From: Candidatus Poribacteria bacterium
Lineage (GTDB): Bacteria; Poribacteria; WGA-4E; WGA-3G
Direction of reading: 5' to 3'
DNA length: 64,000 nucleotides
NCBI GenBank assembly: GCA_026702755.1
Contig: JAPPBX010000120.1
Span: 1 to 64,000 of the forward strand
The notes beneath the pieces are model-generated. The model made no database searches, was not told where the DNA came from, and saw nothing but the letters and a program-made list of their open reading frames with translations. The position numbers and the translations under genes are program-made. Positions 21,954-26,892 of this stretch are shown here, piece by piece. Each line of letters starts with the position of its first letter. Position 1 is the stretch's first letter.

Positions 21954-22002
21954 AAATGTGTTGCCAATTGTATGATGACGTGCTATCCTATGTAACATGG
22001 AT

Positions 22003-22122
22003 AGGACTTACGCATTCCTCTTAAAGTCCCCCTGATAAGGGGGATTTAGGGGGTTAAAAATACAGAAATTACCGATTTTTTGCGTCTGAATGTCCGATAC
22101 TTTCTCAATTTGCGTAAGTCCT
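22003..22122. mobile_element. MITE with perfect 12-bp terminal inverted repeats
   Basis: Ends are AGGACTTACGCA (22003-22014) and TGCGTAAGTCCT (22111-22122), exact inverted repeats, 120 bp in total. Inside lies TAAAGTCCCCCTGATAAGGG and following, shared with the degenerate copy at 2784-2904. No open frame fits inside. No clear target-site duplication is seen. Confidence 0.75.
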
Positions 22123-22176
22123 GATGGAAAAGGAAACGCTAATCCTTCAGCAACGTCAATAGGAGATTTGAACGTC

Positions 22177-22986
22177 ATGCAAAAGGTTGCTGTTATCACT
22201 GGCGCAGCAAGCGGCATCGGGCGCGGACTGGCGGAACGGTTCGCAGCAGAAGGTATGAGGGTCGTCATCGCTGATGTTGAAGACCAAGCGTTAGCCGAAC
22301 TTGAAGCGGACTTAAAAACTAACGGGGCAACTGTTCTCACCGTCAGGACGGATGTCTCAAACGCCGCCGAGGTCGAAAACCTTGCGGTGCAAACGCTGGA
22401 CACTTTCGGCGCGGTGCATATCCTCTGCAACAATGCTGGTGTTGTCTGTAGTCGTCCTATCTGGGAGCATACCCTTGCCGATTGGGAATGGGTGTTGGGC
22501 GTTAACCTGTGGGGCGTAATTCACGGTATCCGGGCATTTGTGCCACGTATGCTTACACAAGGGGACGCGTGCCATATCGTAAATACGGCTTCTATTTTGG
22601 GGTTGGTAGGTGGGAGCGGCGAAGGCATCTATAAGGTAAGCAAACATGGTGTCGTCGCGCTTTCCGAAACCCTCGCCGATGAATTGGCACAGAAAGGTGC
22701 TAATATTCAGGTACATGTACTTTGCCCGGGATGGGTCCGCACAGGTATTCTGGATTCCGCCCGAAACCGTCCGGACACATTACAAAATCCAAAAGTGGAA
22801 ACGCTCCCACGTCAAGAAACCATCGGTGGTTCTCGAAACGTCCGCGCCGAGATGGAGGCGGGGATGTCCCCCGCAGAAGTAGCCGAGCATGTCTATAACG
22901 CTATCCAGAACAGCACCTTCTATATTCACACACATCCTGAGCACAAAGCATGGATTCGCCAGCGTATGGAGCGTATTCTTGCATAG
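22177..22986 (+). CDS. Short-chain dehydrogenase/reductase (SDR)
   Basis: A 269-aa classical SDR. Start ATG 22177, because the cofactor motif begins at residue 8 (ITGAASGIG) and AGGAG lies upstream; a longer frame from 22090 runs through the MITE and is unlikely. NNAG is present, and the catalytic triad is S139, Y152 and K156 (Y-KVS-K). It reduces or oxidises an alcohol/ketone with NAD(P). The D in VVIADVE after beta-2 suggests NAD preference. Substrate unknown. It stands alone. Confidence 0.85.
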   Translation: MQKVAVITGAASGIGRGLAERFAAEGMRVVIADVEDQALAELEADLKTNGATVLTVRTDVSNAAEVENLAVQTLDTFGAVHILCNNAGVVCSRPIWEHTLADWEWVLGVNLWGVIHGIRAFVPRMLTQGDACHIVNTASILGLVGGSGEGIYKVSKHGVVALSETLADELAQKGANIQVHVLCPGWVRTGILDSARNRPDTLQNPKVETLPRQETIGGSRNVRAEMEAGMSPAEVAEHVYNAIQNSTFYIHTHPEHKAWIRQRMERILA

Positions 22987-23065
22987 TTTCTGCGTTAAAA
23001 TATAGAAAGTAAAATGTCTCTTTTTTCTTGACAAAAAAGTGGAAGAGGTGTGAAATATTAAAAGA

Positions 23066-23085
23066 GGGGCGATGTGGGTCGCCCC
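23066..23085. other. Hairpin downstream of the SDR gene
   Basis: GGGGCGA-TGTGGG-TCGCCCC, a perfect 7-bp stem about 80 nt after the SDR stop. No T-tract follows on the plus strand, so it is not a standard terminator. It may stabilise the 3' end or be a small repeat. Confidence 0.4.
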
Positions 23086-23187
23086 ATACCAACCAAATGA
23101 ACTGAGTAAATTTGGTCATTTTGTGTCGGCATTCTTATTTTAAACTGCTCGCCATAAAATGTCAACCCAATTTTTATGGAGGAAAAA

Positions 23188-23967
23188 ATGGCGATAAAAG
23201 ACGGATTTTTCGTTGCGGATTGCGTTGAATTTATGAGTCGTATGGATGAAGGAGTCGTTGATTTGACTGTGACTTCTCCGCCTTACGATAATTTACGGGA
23301 TTATAAAGGTTATTCGTTTGATTTTGAGAATATTGCAAGGCAGTTGTATAGGGTGACAAAGTCGGGTGGAATTATTGTTTGGGTAGTTGGCGATAAAATT
23401 AAAAAAGGTCGCTCACTTACCAGTTTCCGGCAAGGTCTGTTTTTCCAAGAAATTGGTTTCCAAATGCACGACGTTATGATTTATCAGAAGAAAAACACGC
23501 CTTTTATGCGAAGTAATGCCTACACGAACTGCTATGAATTTATGTTCGTGTTATCAAAAGGGAGGCCAAATACCTTTAATCCGTTAAAGGTCGAAACAGC
23601 CAGACATGGACCAGAAATGCTTGTCTATAACAAAAAATCTGATGGTATAAACAAAAAGACGCTCAAGGAGCTGAAAAAGGAAAAGACACGTACTAACATT
23701 TGGTCCTATGCTGTCGGTCTTGGAGGCACTACAAGCGATAGGATAGCTTTCAAACATCCAGCCGTTTTCCCCGAAGGGTTAGCGGAAGATCACATTTTGT
23801 CTTGGACAAATCCAGGAGATCTTGTGTTTGACCCTATGTGTGGAAGTGGCACAACAGGAAAAATGGCACTCATACACAGACGCAGATTTATGGGGGTTGA
23901 CATTTCCGAAGAGTACATTGCCATCGCAAAAAAACGTATAGAAGCACTAAACTTAGAAATGCTATGA
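23188..23967 (+). CDS. DNA methyltransferase (N4-cytosine or N6-adenine, beta class)
   Basis: A 259-aa protein from ATG 23188. GGAGG sits 5-6 nt upstream and itself lies in the longer frame from 23176. Motif IV T29-S-P-P-Y33 comes before motif I D215-PMCGSGTT, the beta-class order. The middle region (about 90-190: FMRSNAYTNCYEFMFVLSKG, TNIWSYAVG) would carry target recognition. TSPPY points to an N4-cytosine or N6-adenine enzyme. Its last 4 bases (ATGA) overlap the start of an HNH protein gene, which suggests a type II restriction-modification pair. Base composition here looks more AT-rich than the neighbours, compatible with recent acquisition. Confidence 0.85.
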   Translation: MAIKDGFFVADCVEFMSRMDEGVVDLTVTSPPYDNLRDYKGYSFDFENIARQLYRVTKSGGIIVWVVGDKIKKGRSLTSFRQGLFFQEIGFQMHDVMIYQKKNTPFMRSNAYTNCYEFMFVLSKGRPNTFNPLKVETARHGPEMLVYNKKSDGINKKTLKELKKEKTRTNIWSYAVGLGGTTSDRIAFKHPAVFPEGLAEDHILSWTNPGDLVFDPMCGSGTTGKMALIHRRRFMGVDISEEYIAIAKKRIEALNLEML

Positions 23968-24560
23968 AAATAGATGATTTTGTTATTGCAACACAACCTA
24001 TCAATGGAATTGTTGTGAATTCCGTTGGGATAATCAATTCAATTTGTGAAAAAGGTGTACAGGTCTATTTCATTGGGAGAAATGAGGTCGTAATAGCACC
24101 ATTTAATTCTCTTCAAGTTATAAATATTGGTGAAACTGGAGAGGAGTACTCGGTCAAAATTTGCAACGTCTGTCACATTCTCAAACCAAAAGATGAGTTT
24201 GACAGAAATCAAACCAATGCCAGCGGAAGACCTACCACACGCCCAAGTTGTAAAAACTGTCGGAAAGTTATTGAGGGAGAAAAAATGCCGACATCAGAGC
24301 GGAGGAAGATGAATGCAAGACGACCGTCGGATCAAACGGTTTTTATATGCCCCATCTGTGAGAAACGGACAATTGTAGACGTAACTGCAAAGATTGTTGC
24401 TGATCACGACCACGACACAGGAGAAGGACGCGAGTGGATCTGTGATAGTTGCAACACCGGTTTAGGTAGATTCAAAGACAACATTGCGATTTTAGAAACG
24501 GCTATTGAATATCTGAAACGTTTTGAAGACGATGAATCAGAGGATTCGGATTCACAATAA
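23964..24560 (+). CDS. HNH / endonuclease VII-like nuclease, candidate restriction enzyme
   Basis: A 198-aa protein in three parts. Residues 1-60 are a small beta-rich domain (DDFVIATQPINGIVV, VQVYFIGRNEVVIAPF) that looks SH3-like. Then comes a four-Cys zinc ribbon C67-x2-C70 ... C96-x2-C99. The HNH/recombination endonuclease VII-type core has C129-x2-C132, D147-H148-D149-H150 and C160-DSC163-N164-TGLGRFKDN. The core would cut DNA with one metal ion, H148/N164 being likely catalytic. It overlaps the methyltransferase by 4 nt (ATGA), so the two are co-translated. A phage-type HNH is an alternative reading, but the tight coupling favours a restriction enzyme. Confidence 0.75.
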   Translation: MKIDDFVIATQPINGIVVNSVGIINSICEKGVQVYFIGRNEVVIAPFNSLQVINIGETGEEYSVKICNVCHILKPKDEFDRNQTNASGRPTTRPSCKNCRKVIEGEKMPTSERRKMNARRPSDQTVFICPICEKRTIVDVTAKIVADHDHDTGEGREWICDSCNTGLGRFKDNIAILETAIEYLKRFEDDESEDSDSQ

Positions 24561-24597
24561 AGTGTAGAGTTATTATCTTTTGGAGGGAATCTATATT

Positions 24598-25536
24598 ATG
24601 AGAACGAAAATCACGTTTTCGACAATTAGTTTTGTGATGTTGCTGATCGCGAGTTTATCCTTTTCCACATCGGTTTTCGCACAGCAGGCACTGGAGAATT
24701 CTATAACAAAAGACATCCCGTTGACGCATCCACATATTGATGGTGATGGTGTGCTAACGTTAGACCTATCTAAGGATTTAGGGCTAACCGCCGACAAAGT
24801 TGTTGAATTCGTCAATGCTCTATCTGTATCTGCAGGAGAGACTGGGACACTTGAAGTTGCTACTAAGGGTGGTACAATTGCACTGCTGAAACCAGCAAAT
24901 TCTTCCATTCATCCCAAGGCACTTGTCCTTCGCGAGATCAAAACTGAACTCGTAGCAGAAGTAGCGGGCGTGGATGGTAAAGATGAAGAGTTTATATTTC
25001 GATTGACACCGCAACCTTTTCCAGACGAATCAATTATCCAGATTAAAAAAGTTGTCTTAATTAAGCTTTACAATACGACCAAAAGTCGAATCAACCTCCA
25101 GGATTGGCAAATTCGATTCACCTCTGGTGTGAACCCCGATGCAACAACTGAAAGGGTTATTGACACAATGAGCAATGTGGATGAAAAGACTTGGGCGCAT
25201 GGCAAACAGCACGATGCACAAAATATATTCTCTGTAAAGAGTCTCATAATGTCTCGTCAGATTGATTTTAAGCTTCTTACCGATCCAATGAAGACAAAGG
25301 ATGAGCAGTTATCAGCTATTTCAGATGGCACTCTGCAGACAGGTTGGAATATCAACATGAAGCCTGTTAAGCCTGAGCCGGTTGGGAATGGATTACCCCA
25401 ATGGATTGAAATTTACAACCGCAAGGATGGAGCAACAACAATCCGGGTTGAGATGCGTGAAACTGATGAACCTGTAGTTCCCCCTGAAAATCCAGAAGTC
25501 ATTATTGATCCTGCACCGCCAACTGAAGATTTCTAA
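24598..25536 (+). CDS. Exported protein, lamin-tail-like
   Basis: A 312-aa protein from ATG 24598 (TGGAGGGAAT upstream). Signal peptide of about 29 residues (ends VFAQ-QA). The middle (about 140-215) contains VVLIKLYNTTKSRINLQDWQI, and near the end PQWIEIYNRKDGATTI. Such phrases occur in lamin-tail domains of Poribacteria-type surface proteins. The tail is acidic and Pro-rich (VPPENPEVI). Probably secreted or surface located; function unknown. It follows the restriction-modification pair by 37 nt and may be read through from it. Confidence 0.65.
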   Translation: MRTKITFSTISFVMLLIASLSFSTSVFAQQALENSITKDIPLTHPHIDGDGVLTLDLSKDLGLTADKVVEFVNALSVSAGETGTLEVATKGGTIALLKPANSSIHPKALVLREIKTELVAEVAGVDGKDEEFIFRLTPQPFPDESIIQIKKVVLIKLYNTTKSRINLQDWQIRFTSGVNPDATTERVIDTMSNVDEKTWAHGKQHDAQNIFSVKSLIMSRQIDFKLLTDPMKTKDEQLSAISDGTLQTGWNINMKPVKPEPVGNGLPQWIEIYNRKDGATTIRVEMRETDEPVVPPENPEVIIDPAPPTEDF

Positions 25537-25573
25537 AAGAATTAAGCAAGACTCGTTTTGTAATTTTTCTACA

Positions 25574-25602
25574 GGGGCGGTGCTTCTGTGCCGTCCCTTT
25601 TA
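25574..25602 (+). terminator. Rho-independent terminator
   Basis: GGGGCGGTGC - TTCT - GTGCCGTCCC (25574-25597, with G-U pairs) followed by TTTT. It closes the exported protein unit. It lies just outside the 3' end of the small minus-strand gene. Confidence 0.7.
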
Positions 25603-25626
25603 GTTCGGTTTGAAGCGTCGCTGTCC

Positions 25627-25797
25627 TTATAGTTTCTCTTTTAAGAAACTGAGTGCCTCGTCAAGAATCAATAAGAAGAAACCTCCGTAAATTATTATTA
25701 CGGCTTCAAAACCAGACAGTCCGACACCGTTTGTGATTGATGCAATAACAACAAGCAGCATTAGGATATAAATAACGGCTTGTCTGAAAGTTCGCAT
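25627..25797 (-). CDS. 56-residue membrane protein
   Basis: ATG 25797 has AAGGAG 6 nt upstream and the frame ends TAA at 25627. The product starts MRTFRQAVIYILMLL, has two hydrophobic helices (about 8-24 and 28-45) and a charged tail DEALSFLKEKL. It lies 12 nt after the alcohol dehydrogenase stop on the same strand, so it is probably the last gene of that unit. No family recognised. Confidence 0.6.
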   Translation of the reverse strand: MRTFRQAVIYILMLLVVIASITNGVGLSGFEAVIIIYGGFFLLILDEALSFLKEKL

Positions 25798-25809
25798 GAT
25801 GTCTCCTTG

Positions 25810-26892
25810 TTAAGTCAAATCAAGCACACTCCGTGCGACTTCACCTTTTGCCAAAGCCTCAAATGCATCGTTAATCCCTTCCAGGGGATAGGTGCGCGTG
25901 ACGAGTTCGTCCAGTTTGAGTTGTCCGCCTTTATAGAGCGAGACCAAACGCGGGAAGTCCACATGTGGGCGCGCGGTTCCATACATCGAACCGATAACCA
26001 TTTTCTCCGGCATCAGCATCCGTGCGTCGAATTCGACAGGGGTGTTCTCGGGTGCGTGTCCGACGAAAACCGTCAGACCTCTGCTCCGTGTGCAGAGAAT
26101 CGCTTGCCGGAATGTTTCACCGATCAACCCGATTGCCTCAAACGCATAATGGACACCACGTCCATTCGTAATTTCCCTAATCTGTTCTACGGGGTCTGCT
26201 TTGGCGGCGTTAACGGTGTGGGTGGCACCGAACTGCCTACCGAGTTCAAGTTTGTTGTCGAGTACATCGACTGCGATAATCGGTTCGCCGCCAGAAAGGG
26301 CAGCACCTTGGATGCAATTGAGTCCGACCCCACCGCATCCGAAGACAGCGACTGAACTGCCGGGCGCGACTTGTGCTGTATTGATAGCCGCACCAACACC
26401 CGTCATTACGCCACACCCGATGAGCGCGGCTTGGGCAAACGGCATGTCCTTATCGATAGGAACAACTGCATCCTGTGGGACAAGCGTCTCAGTCCCGAAC
26501 GTTCCTAATCCGGACATCTGGTCTATCTCTCGTCCACTCGATTTTATAGCCGGTTTGCCTGATCCGTCAGCGGGAAGCGCACACAAATTCGGATATCCTT
26601 TCTGACACATCTCACAGTATCCACAGTTCCGTTTCCATGAAAGGATAACATGATCGCCGACTTCCACTTGAGTTACATCGCTTCCGATCTCTTCTACAAC
26701 ACCAGCACCTTCATGTCCCAGGATAACAGGTAACCTGACGAAGGGCCAATCCCCCTTAACGACATGCCAATCGGAATGACAGACACCACTCGCTACCAAT
26801 CGCACCCGTACCTGATTCGCACTTGGACGCGGTAGGTCAAACTCTTCAATTTTTAAATGCGTGTCGGTTTCGTATAATACTGCAGCTTTCAT
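25810..26892 (-). CDS. Zinc-dependent alcohol dehydrogenase
   Basis: A 360-aa medium-chain dehydrogenase. Catalytic zinc ligands are C38 (GVCHSD) and H60-E61 (GHEGAG). Structural zinc cysteines are C90, C93, C96 and C104 (CGYCEMCQKGYPNLC). The Rossmann motif is VAVFGCGGVGLN with an acidic residue after beta-2 (IIAVDVLDNK), indicating NAD. It is close to the class III / aryl- and formaldehyde-type branch, but substrate cannot be read. Cytoplasmic. ATG 26892 has CGGAGGAACCCC upstream. Confidence 0.85.
   Translation of the reverse strand: MKAAVLYETDTHLKIEEFDLPRPSANQVRVRLVASGVCHSDWHVVKGDWPFVRLPVILGHEGAGVVEEIGSDVTQVEVGDHVILSWKRNCGYCEMCQKGYPNLCALPADGSGKPAIKSSGREIDQMSGLGTFGTETLVPQDAVVPIDKDMPFAQAALIGCGVMTGVGAAINTAQVAPGSSVAVFGCGGVGLNCIQGAALSGGEPIIAVDVLDNKLELGRQFGATHTVNAAKADPVEQIREITNGRGVHYAFEAIGLIGETFRQAILCTRSRGLTVFVGHAPENTPVEFDARMLMPEKMVIGSMYGTARPHVDFPRLVSLYKGGQLKLDELVTRTYPLEGINDAFEALAKGEVARSVLDLT

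Follow-up and report, generated by a model that had tools for sequence, protein, structure and literature searches.

A probable Hpy99I-type restriction-modification operon at an insertion hotspot of Poribacteria

Introduction

In a poribacterial genome, a DNA methyltransferase gene overlaps the gene of a small zinc-containing nuclease related to endonuclease VII, which raises the question whether the two form a restriction-modification system and, if so, of what descent. The pair lies in a window of 64,000 nucleotides (Candidatus Poribacteria bacterium, assembly GCA_026702755.1, contig JAPPBX010000120.1, positions 1 to 64,000), to which all coordinates given here refer. We regard the two genes, M and R, as an operon of the Hpy99I family, a type IIP restriction-modification system gained by horizontal transfer (probability about 0.93). 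Its layout is already known; the novelty resides in the leader preceding the operon, in the hotspot where it is inserted and in a second, related pair (M'-R'), the nuclease of which has no SH3 head.

The gene pair and its kinship to Hpy99I

M (23188..23967, forward strand) encodes a beta-class DNA methyltransferase of 259 amino acids (Pfam N6_N4_Mtase, 5e-43), and R (23964..24560, forward strand) an Hpy99I-type beta-beta-alpha-Me restriction endonuclease of 198 amino acids, recognised by phmmer against PDB 3FC3 and by PADLOC. The genes share the nucleotides ATGA at 23964-23967, and the ribosome-binding site of M is a GGAGG at 23178-23182. The initial annotation had proposed exactly these two overlapping reading frames, and both are borne out by Pfam matches and by dN/dS, which among three Poribacteria (the window, G041 and G043) amounts to 0.04-0.06 for M and 0.07-0.10 for R; M and R are genuine genes under purifying selection. 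The AT-richness pointed out at the same time is real as well, the G+C content being 40-41% in M-R and 35% in the leader, compared with 52% in the flanking dehydrogenase genes.

In M, motif IV (TSPPY) stands ahead of motif I (DPMCGSGTT), the order of the beta class. PADLOC assigns the protein to oMTase (1.5e-80) and MTase_II (1e-63), and it is 64-73% identical to the products of M genes situated beside Hpy99I-type R genes of other phyla.

Over its whole length R is orthologous to Hpy99I, a type IIP enzyme. Three Pfam domains, all past the cut-off, follow each other in the order known from that enzyme: an SH3-like barrel (residues 1-51, 23964..24116, forward strand; SH3_17, 'Restriction endonuclease SH3 domain', 2e-11), a first beta4-alpha2 repeat with the zinc ligands C67, C70, C96 and C99 (residues 55-105, 24126..24278, forward strand; His_Me_b4a2, 5e-21) and a second repeat forming the beta-beta-alpha-Me catalytic core (residues 120-188, 24321..24527, forward strand; Endonuclease_7, 2e-19), with zinc ligands C129, C132, C160 and C163 and the catalytic residues D147, H148 and N164. 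The match to Hpy99I (PDB 3FC3) has an E-value of 3e-70 (phmmer, Protein Data Bank); residues 2-188 of R align without gaps to residues 13-199 of the structure, with 58% identity overall; the SH3 barrel reaches 46%, the first repeat 63% and the second, catalytic repeat 71%. D147, H148 and N164 correspond to D148, H149 and N165 of Hpy99I (numbering after PMC3765158; roles of these residues in PMC3765158 and PMC4081073), and in a family alignment of 42 sequences the catalytic D, H and N (42 of 42) as well as the eight zinc cysteines, arranged in two CxxC...CxxC sets, are invariant; 66 columns are conserved to at least 95% across phyla. PADLOC classifies R as REase_II (1e-72). The domains, the match to 3FC3 and the corresponding residues together therefore contradict the earlier remark that a restriction enzyme with this precise layout was not known. 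The accompanying description of R was right about the SH3-like head and the endonuclease VII core, but its single four-Cys zinc ribbon has to be replaced by two Cys4 sites.

The likeness to R.Hpy99I and M.Hpy99I of Helicobacter pylori J99 (type IIP, CGWCG) thus comprises the domain order, the catalytic and zinc residues and the beta class of the methyltransferase, that of H. pylori being of the m4C type. The window pair differs in belonging to another phylum, in having its specificity assigned by homology and in carrying a conserved leader with opposed promoter-like sites, found only in the Poribacteria members. An Hpy99I-type enzyme is hereby placed in a phylum distant from Helicobacter, and cognate pairs occur in Bacteroidota, Spirochaetota, Campylobacterota, archaea and others.

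Linkage of M and R

Among 43 genome loci with relatives of R, 42 have M within about 1 kb. M lies upstream and in the same direction at 19 loci (Poribacteria, Helicobacter, Brachyspira and proteobacteria), the two genes are convergent at 22, mostly in Bacteroidota and archaea, and divergent at a single locus; these layouts cluster on the R tree and on the M tree alike (0 of 500 shuffles gave values as low). A methylase likewise adjoins 12 of 13 relatives in Helicobacter (PMC6083498). The closest relative of R, with 89% identity, belongs to a Poribacteria genome. In one pair (L002) M is 85% and R 89% identical to the window genes, while in a poribacterial contig of 62 kb (L003) M is 86% and R only 67% identical; M or R thus seems to have been exchanged separately. 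As a side observation, beta-class methyltransferase matches number 16-30 per genome at E 1e-3 in G041, G043, G011, G072 and G073, which are rich in such enzymes.

Expected activity and alternative readings

The SPPY motif is typical of m4C methyltransferases. Since M contains it and M.Hpy99I (jhp0756) of H. pylori J99 makes m4C in CGWCG (PMC3936762), protection and cleavage of CGWCG would be the expected activity of the pair. M would be translated first and is predicted to convert CGWCG to its N4-methylcytosine form; an adenine methylase is unlikely, because the central W would let adenine mark one strand only. R, translated by way of the overlapping ATGA, would form a homodimer that encircles DNA and cuts unmethylated CGWCG, each subunit contributing one beta-beta-alpha-Me active site and two structural zincs, with D147 and N164 holding the metal and H148 activating the water molecule. 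Unmethylated foreign DNA would be cut and host DNA spared. We infer recognition, m4C formation, dimerisation and cleavage by homology, and CGWCG is the likely specificity.

A recognition sequence that has drifted away from CGWCG, within the same family and mechanism, is one alternative, and we consider it unlikely. It may draw on the 58% overall identity of R to Hpy99I and above all on the SH3 barrel, whose 46% leaves room for an altered specificity, as well as on the host genome, where CGWCG is hardly avoided: in 370 kb, 690 sites are observed and 745 expected (about 1.9 sites per kb). This observed/expected ratio of 0.93 lies, however, within the range of five relatives without R (0.88-1.03), so that site avoidance was dropped as an uninformative test, and its near-absence speaks neither for nor against CGWCG. 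Against drift stand the more strongly conserved beta4-alpha2 repeats, the 66 columns maintained across phyla and the identity of M to its partners in other phyla, which would be high if the targets differed. Decay, with M left as an orphan methylase beside an inactive R, is quite improbable: relatives do show it, R being frameshifted in L008 and L042 and truncated in L039, and several R' copies having stops or missing zinc cysteines, but R of the window is intact, possesses every catalytic and zinc residue and has the low dN/dS given above.

Another reading, in our view a highly improbable one, takes R for an endonuclease VII of homing, packaging or resolvase type whose position beside a methyltransferase is fortuitous. 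The catalytic half of R does match phage families (PHROG 2633, 3e-24), and partial matches occur in 288 phage records; yet none of these spans 80% of R, they fall on residues from about 40 onward and are mostly 30-36% identical, whereas the SH3 head and a linked M occur together in more than 40 genomes. Phage T4 endonuclease VII and phage F-CphI, members of the DHHRN family (PMC6083498), are comparable to R in the catalytic motif and in the fold of the C-terminal half, but lack the SH3 head and a methyltransferase partner and function as resolvase or homing enzyme. A scan of viral contigs yielded no relatives of R, and a plasmid search gave short matches and no full-length relative. The outcome named beforehand as speaking against restriction, a nuclease of phage packaging or homing that has no methyltransferase beside it, was looked for in phages, plasmids and viral contigs and not found; with a chromosomal M partner and no full-length relative in any of these sources, we rejected it in favour of an Hpy99I-type restriction-modification pair.

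Acquisition at an SDR-ADH hotspot

The M-R unit, consisting of leader, M and R (approximately 22996..24561, forward strand), follows a gene for an SDR-family dehydrogenase (SDR, 22090..22986, forward strand; Pfam adh_short) which is conserved across the genus. Downstream come a gene for a Lamin-tail-like (LTD) secreted protein (24595..25536, forward strand), present in four of 38 genus genomes, and, as the right border, a zinc-type alcohol dehydrogenase gene (ADH, 25810..26892, reverse strand; Pfam ADH_N/ADH_zinc_N) convergent with SDR. SDR was matched in every genus genome searched and has ADH as its convergent neighbour in most. In seven of them the two stop codons are 6-30 bp apart, representing the empty site; in G017 and G011 the gap holds the LTD gene alone, which in G017 directly follows SDR, M-R being absent. 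M-R occupies this spot in the window, G041 and G043, with an identical left junction in the window and G043; seven genomes have there an opposite-facing M'-R' pair, and one the tail of M' alone. The SDR-ADH gap is a genus-wide insertion hotspot. That the system has been acquired, as initially suggested, agrees with the empty sites of relatives and with the pairing at 42 of 43 loci.

Between the window and G041, the synonymous distance is 0.39 for R, 0.93 for SDR, 0.88 for ADH and 1.5 for M. As the value for R is less than half of those for the two flanking genes, and that for M is larger, the distances suggest that the unit has undergone lateral exchange and internal recombination. By eye, no target-site duplication was seen at the junction of the M-R insertion. 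In two other loci (L090 and L103) the 3' end of ADH is duplicated next to the cargo, which hints at a target-site duplication there. Empty site, M-R, M'-R' and decayed copies constitute a natural series in which entry and exit of compact restriction-modification units can be followed at one spot.

The gap also carries other cargo (window 22987-25809; loci L086-L119), including a small lipoprotein-like open reading frame and, in L090, L095 and L103, a pair that by eye resembles toxin-antitoxin genes of the DUF4258/YgiT type. On the left side, a dispersed, roughly 120-bp repeat (window 22001-22124) recurs with 87-94% identity in at least three other sampled host contigs, with partial copies elsewhere, and enters the annotated start of the SDR reading frame, whose true start is probably at 22177.

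A second pair without the SH3 head

R' has about 126 amino acids; the SH3 head is absent, and both zinc repeats and the D-H...N residues are kept. Its AlphaFold model is of moderate confidence (pLDDT 82, pTM 0.57), and the sole significant structural match of this model is Hpy99I (E 3e-8). In a scan of the phylum R' is limited to two Poribacteria genera, where full or near-full copies adjoin M' and begin at a GTG within the end of M' (L045-L050, L172-L191; for example, L047:1516-1893). The M protein of M-R and M' of G011 are 46-47% identical. Decay is visible here too: R' of G013 contains a stop, and from R' of G005 zinc cysteines have been lost. The head-less R' raises the question what the SH3 domain is for.

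G041 holds M-R and also an M' followed by a tandem of two R' copies; a relic of M is present as well. The tandem copies (L191 / L193, G041:C16:34632-35392), which follow M', differ from each other and could act as a heterodimer.

The leader and a predicted antisense RNA

The leader of M, about 130 bp in length, shows unusual conservation. Over the 178 bp upstream of M, identity is 89% to G043 and 83-87% to the two copies present in G041, although synonymous sites are near saturation. A stretch of 111 bp recurs, with 82% identity, in the M' leader of G011. Five leaders were compared, one being a relic and two coming from one genome. For transcription of M-R, a promoter-like site is predicted at 23028..23056 (forward strand; TTGACA-N17-TGAAAT); it agrees with the consensus in 10 of 12 positions, and its location is conserved in G043 and G041, less well in the other leaders. 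It is opposed by a reverse promoter-like site, TTGACA-N17-TAAAAT (23137..23165, reverse strand; 11 of 12), which attains 10-11 of 12 consensus positions in all five leaders, a level reached by none of 300 column shuffles.

The reverse site faces an inverted repeat, GGGGCGA-TGTGGG-TCGCCCC (23066..23085), which on the minus strand is followed by a T-rich tract and appears terminator-like in a terminator scan; the tract is short in some leaders. G043 shows a compensatory change from C-G to U-A in the repeat. We rejected a dispersed genomic repeat as its explanation, since it has one copy in the 5.84-Mb genome. From the conserved reverse promoter an antisense RNA of about 70 nt could arise (23058..23131, reverse strand), predicted by folding to form two hairpins and complementary to the leader at the 5' end of the M-R mRNA. 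Its folding z-score is -3.8, and none of 200 shuffles folds as well; covariation is slight, with two pairs showing double changes in five sequences. Rfam contains no family for the leader, giving chance matches far below the cut-off.

From these features we infer that M-R might be controlled by two promoters facing each other, together with a short antisense RNA. EcoRI and Eco29kI offer a precedent, being regulated by convergent promoters and short antisense RNA (Rna0 of EcoRI has 88 nt; PMC3874152). In these systems R comes first and the reverse promoters lie within the R gene, whereas the reverse promoter predicted in the window precedes both genes, within the leader, and M comes first. The leader is a candidate for control by antisense RNA independent of a C protein. 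Only tentatively, and at rather less than even odds, do we propose that M-R is switched by a leader antisense RNA ending at the hairpin and that this cassette has been exchanged between M-R and the M'-R' pair of G011. The leader relic, which retains the first codons of M, is located in G041 (L123:63-310, G041:C82), away from the intact M-R of that genome.
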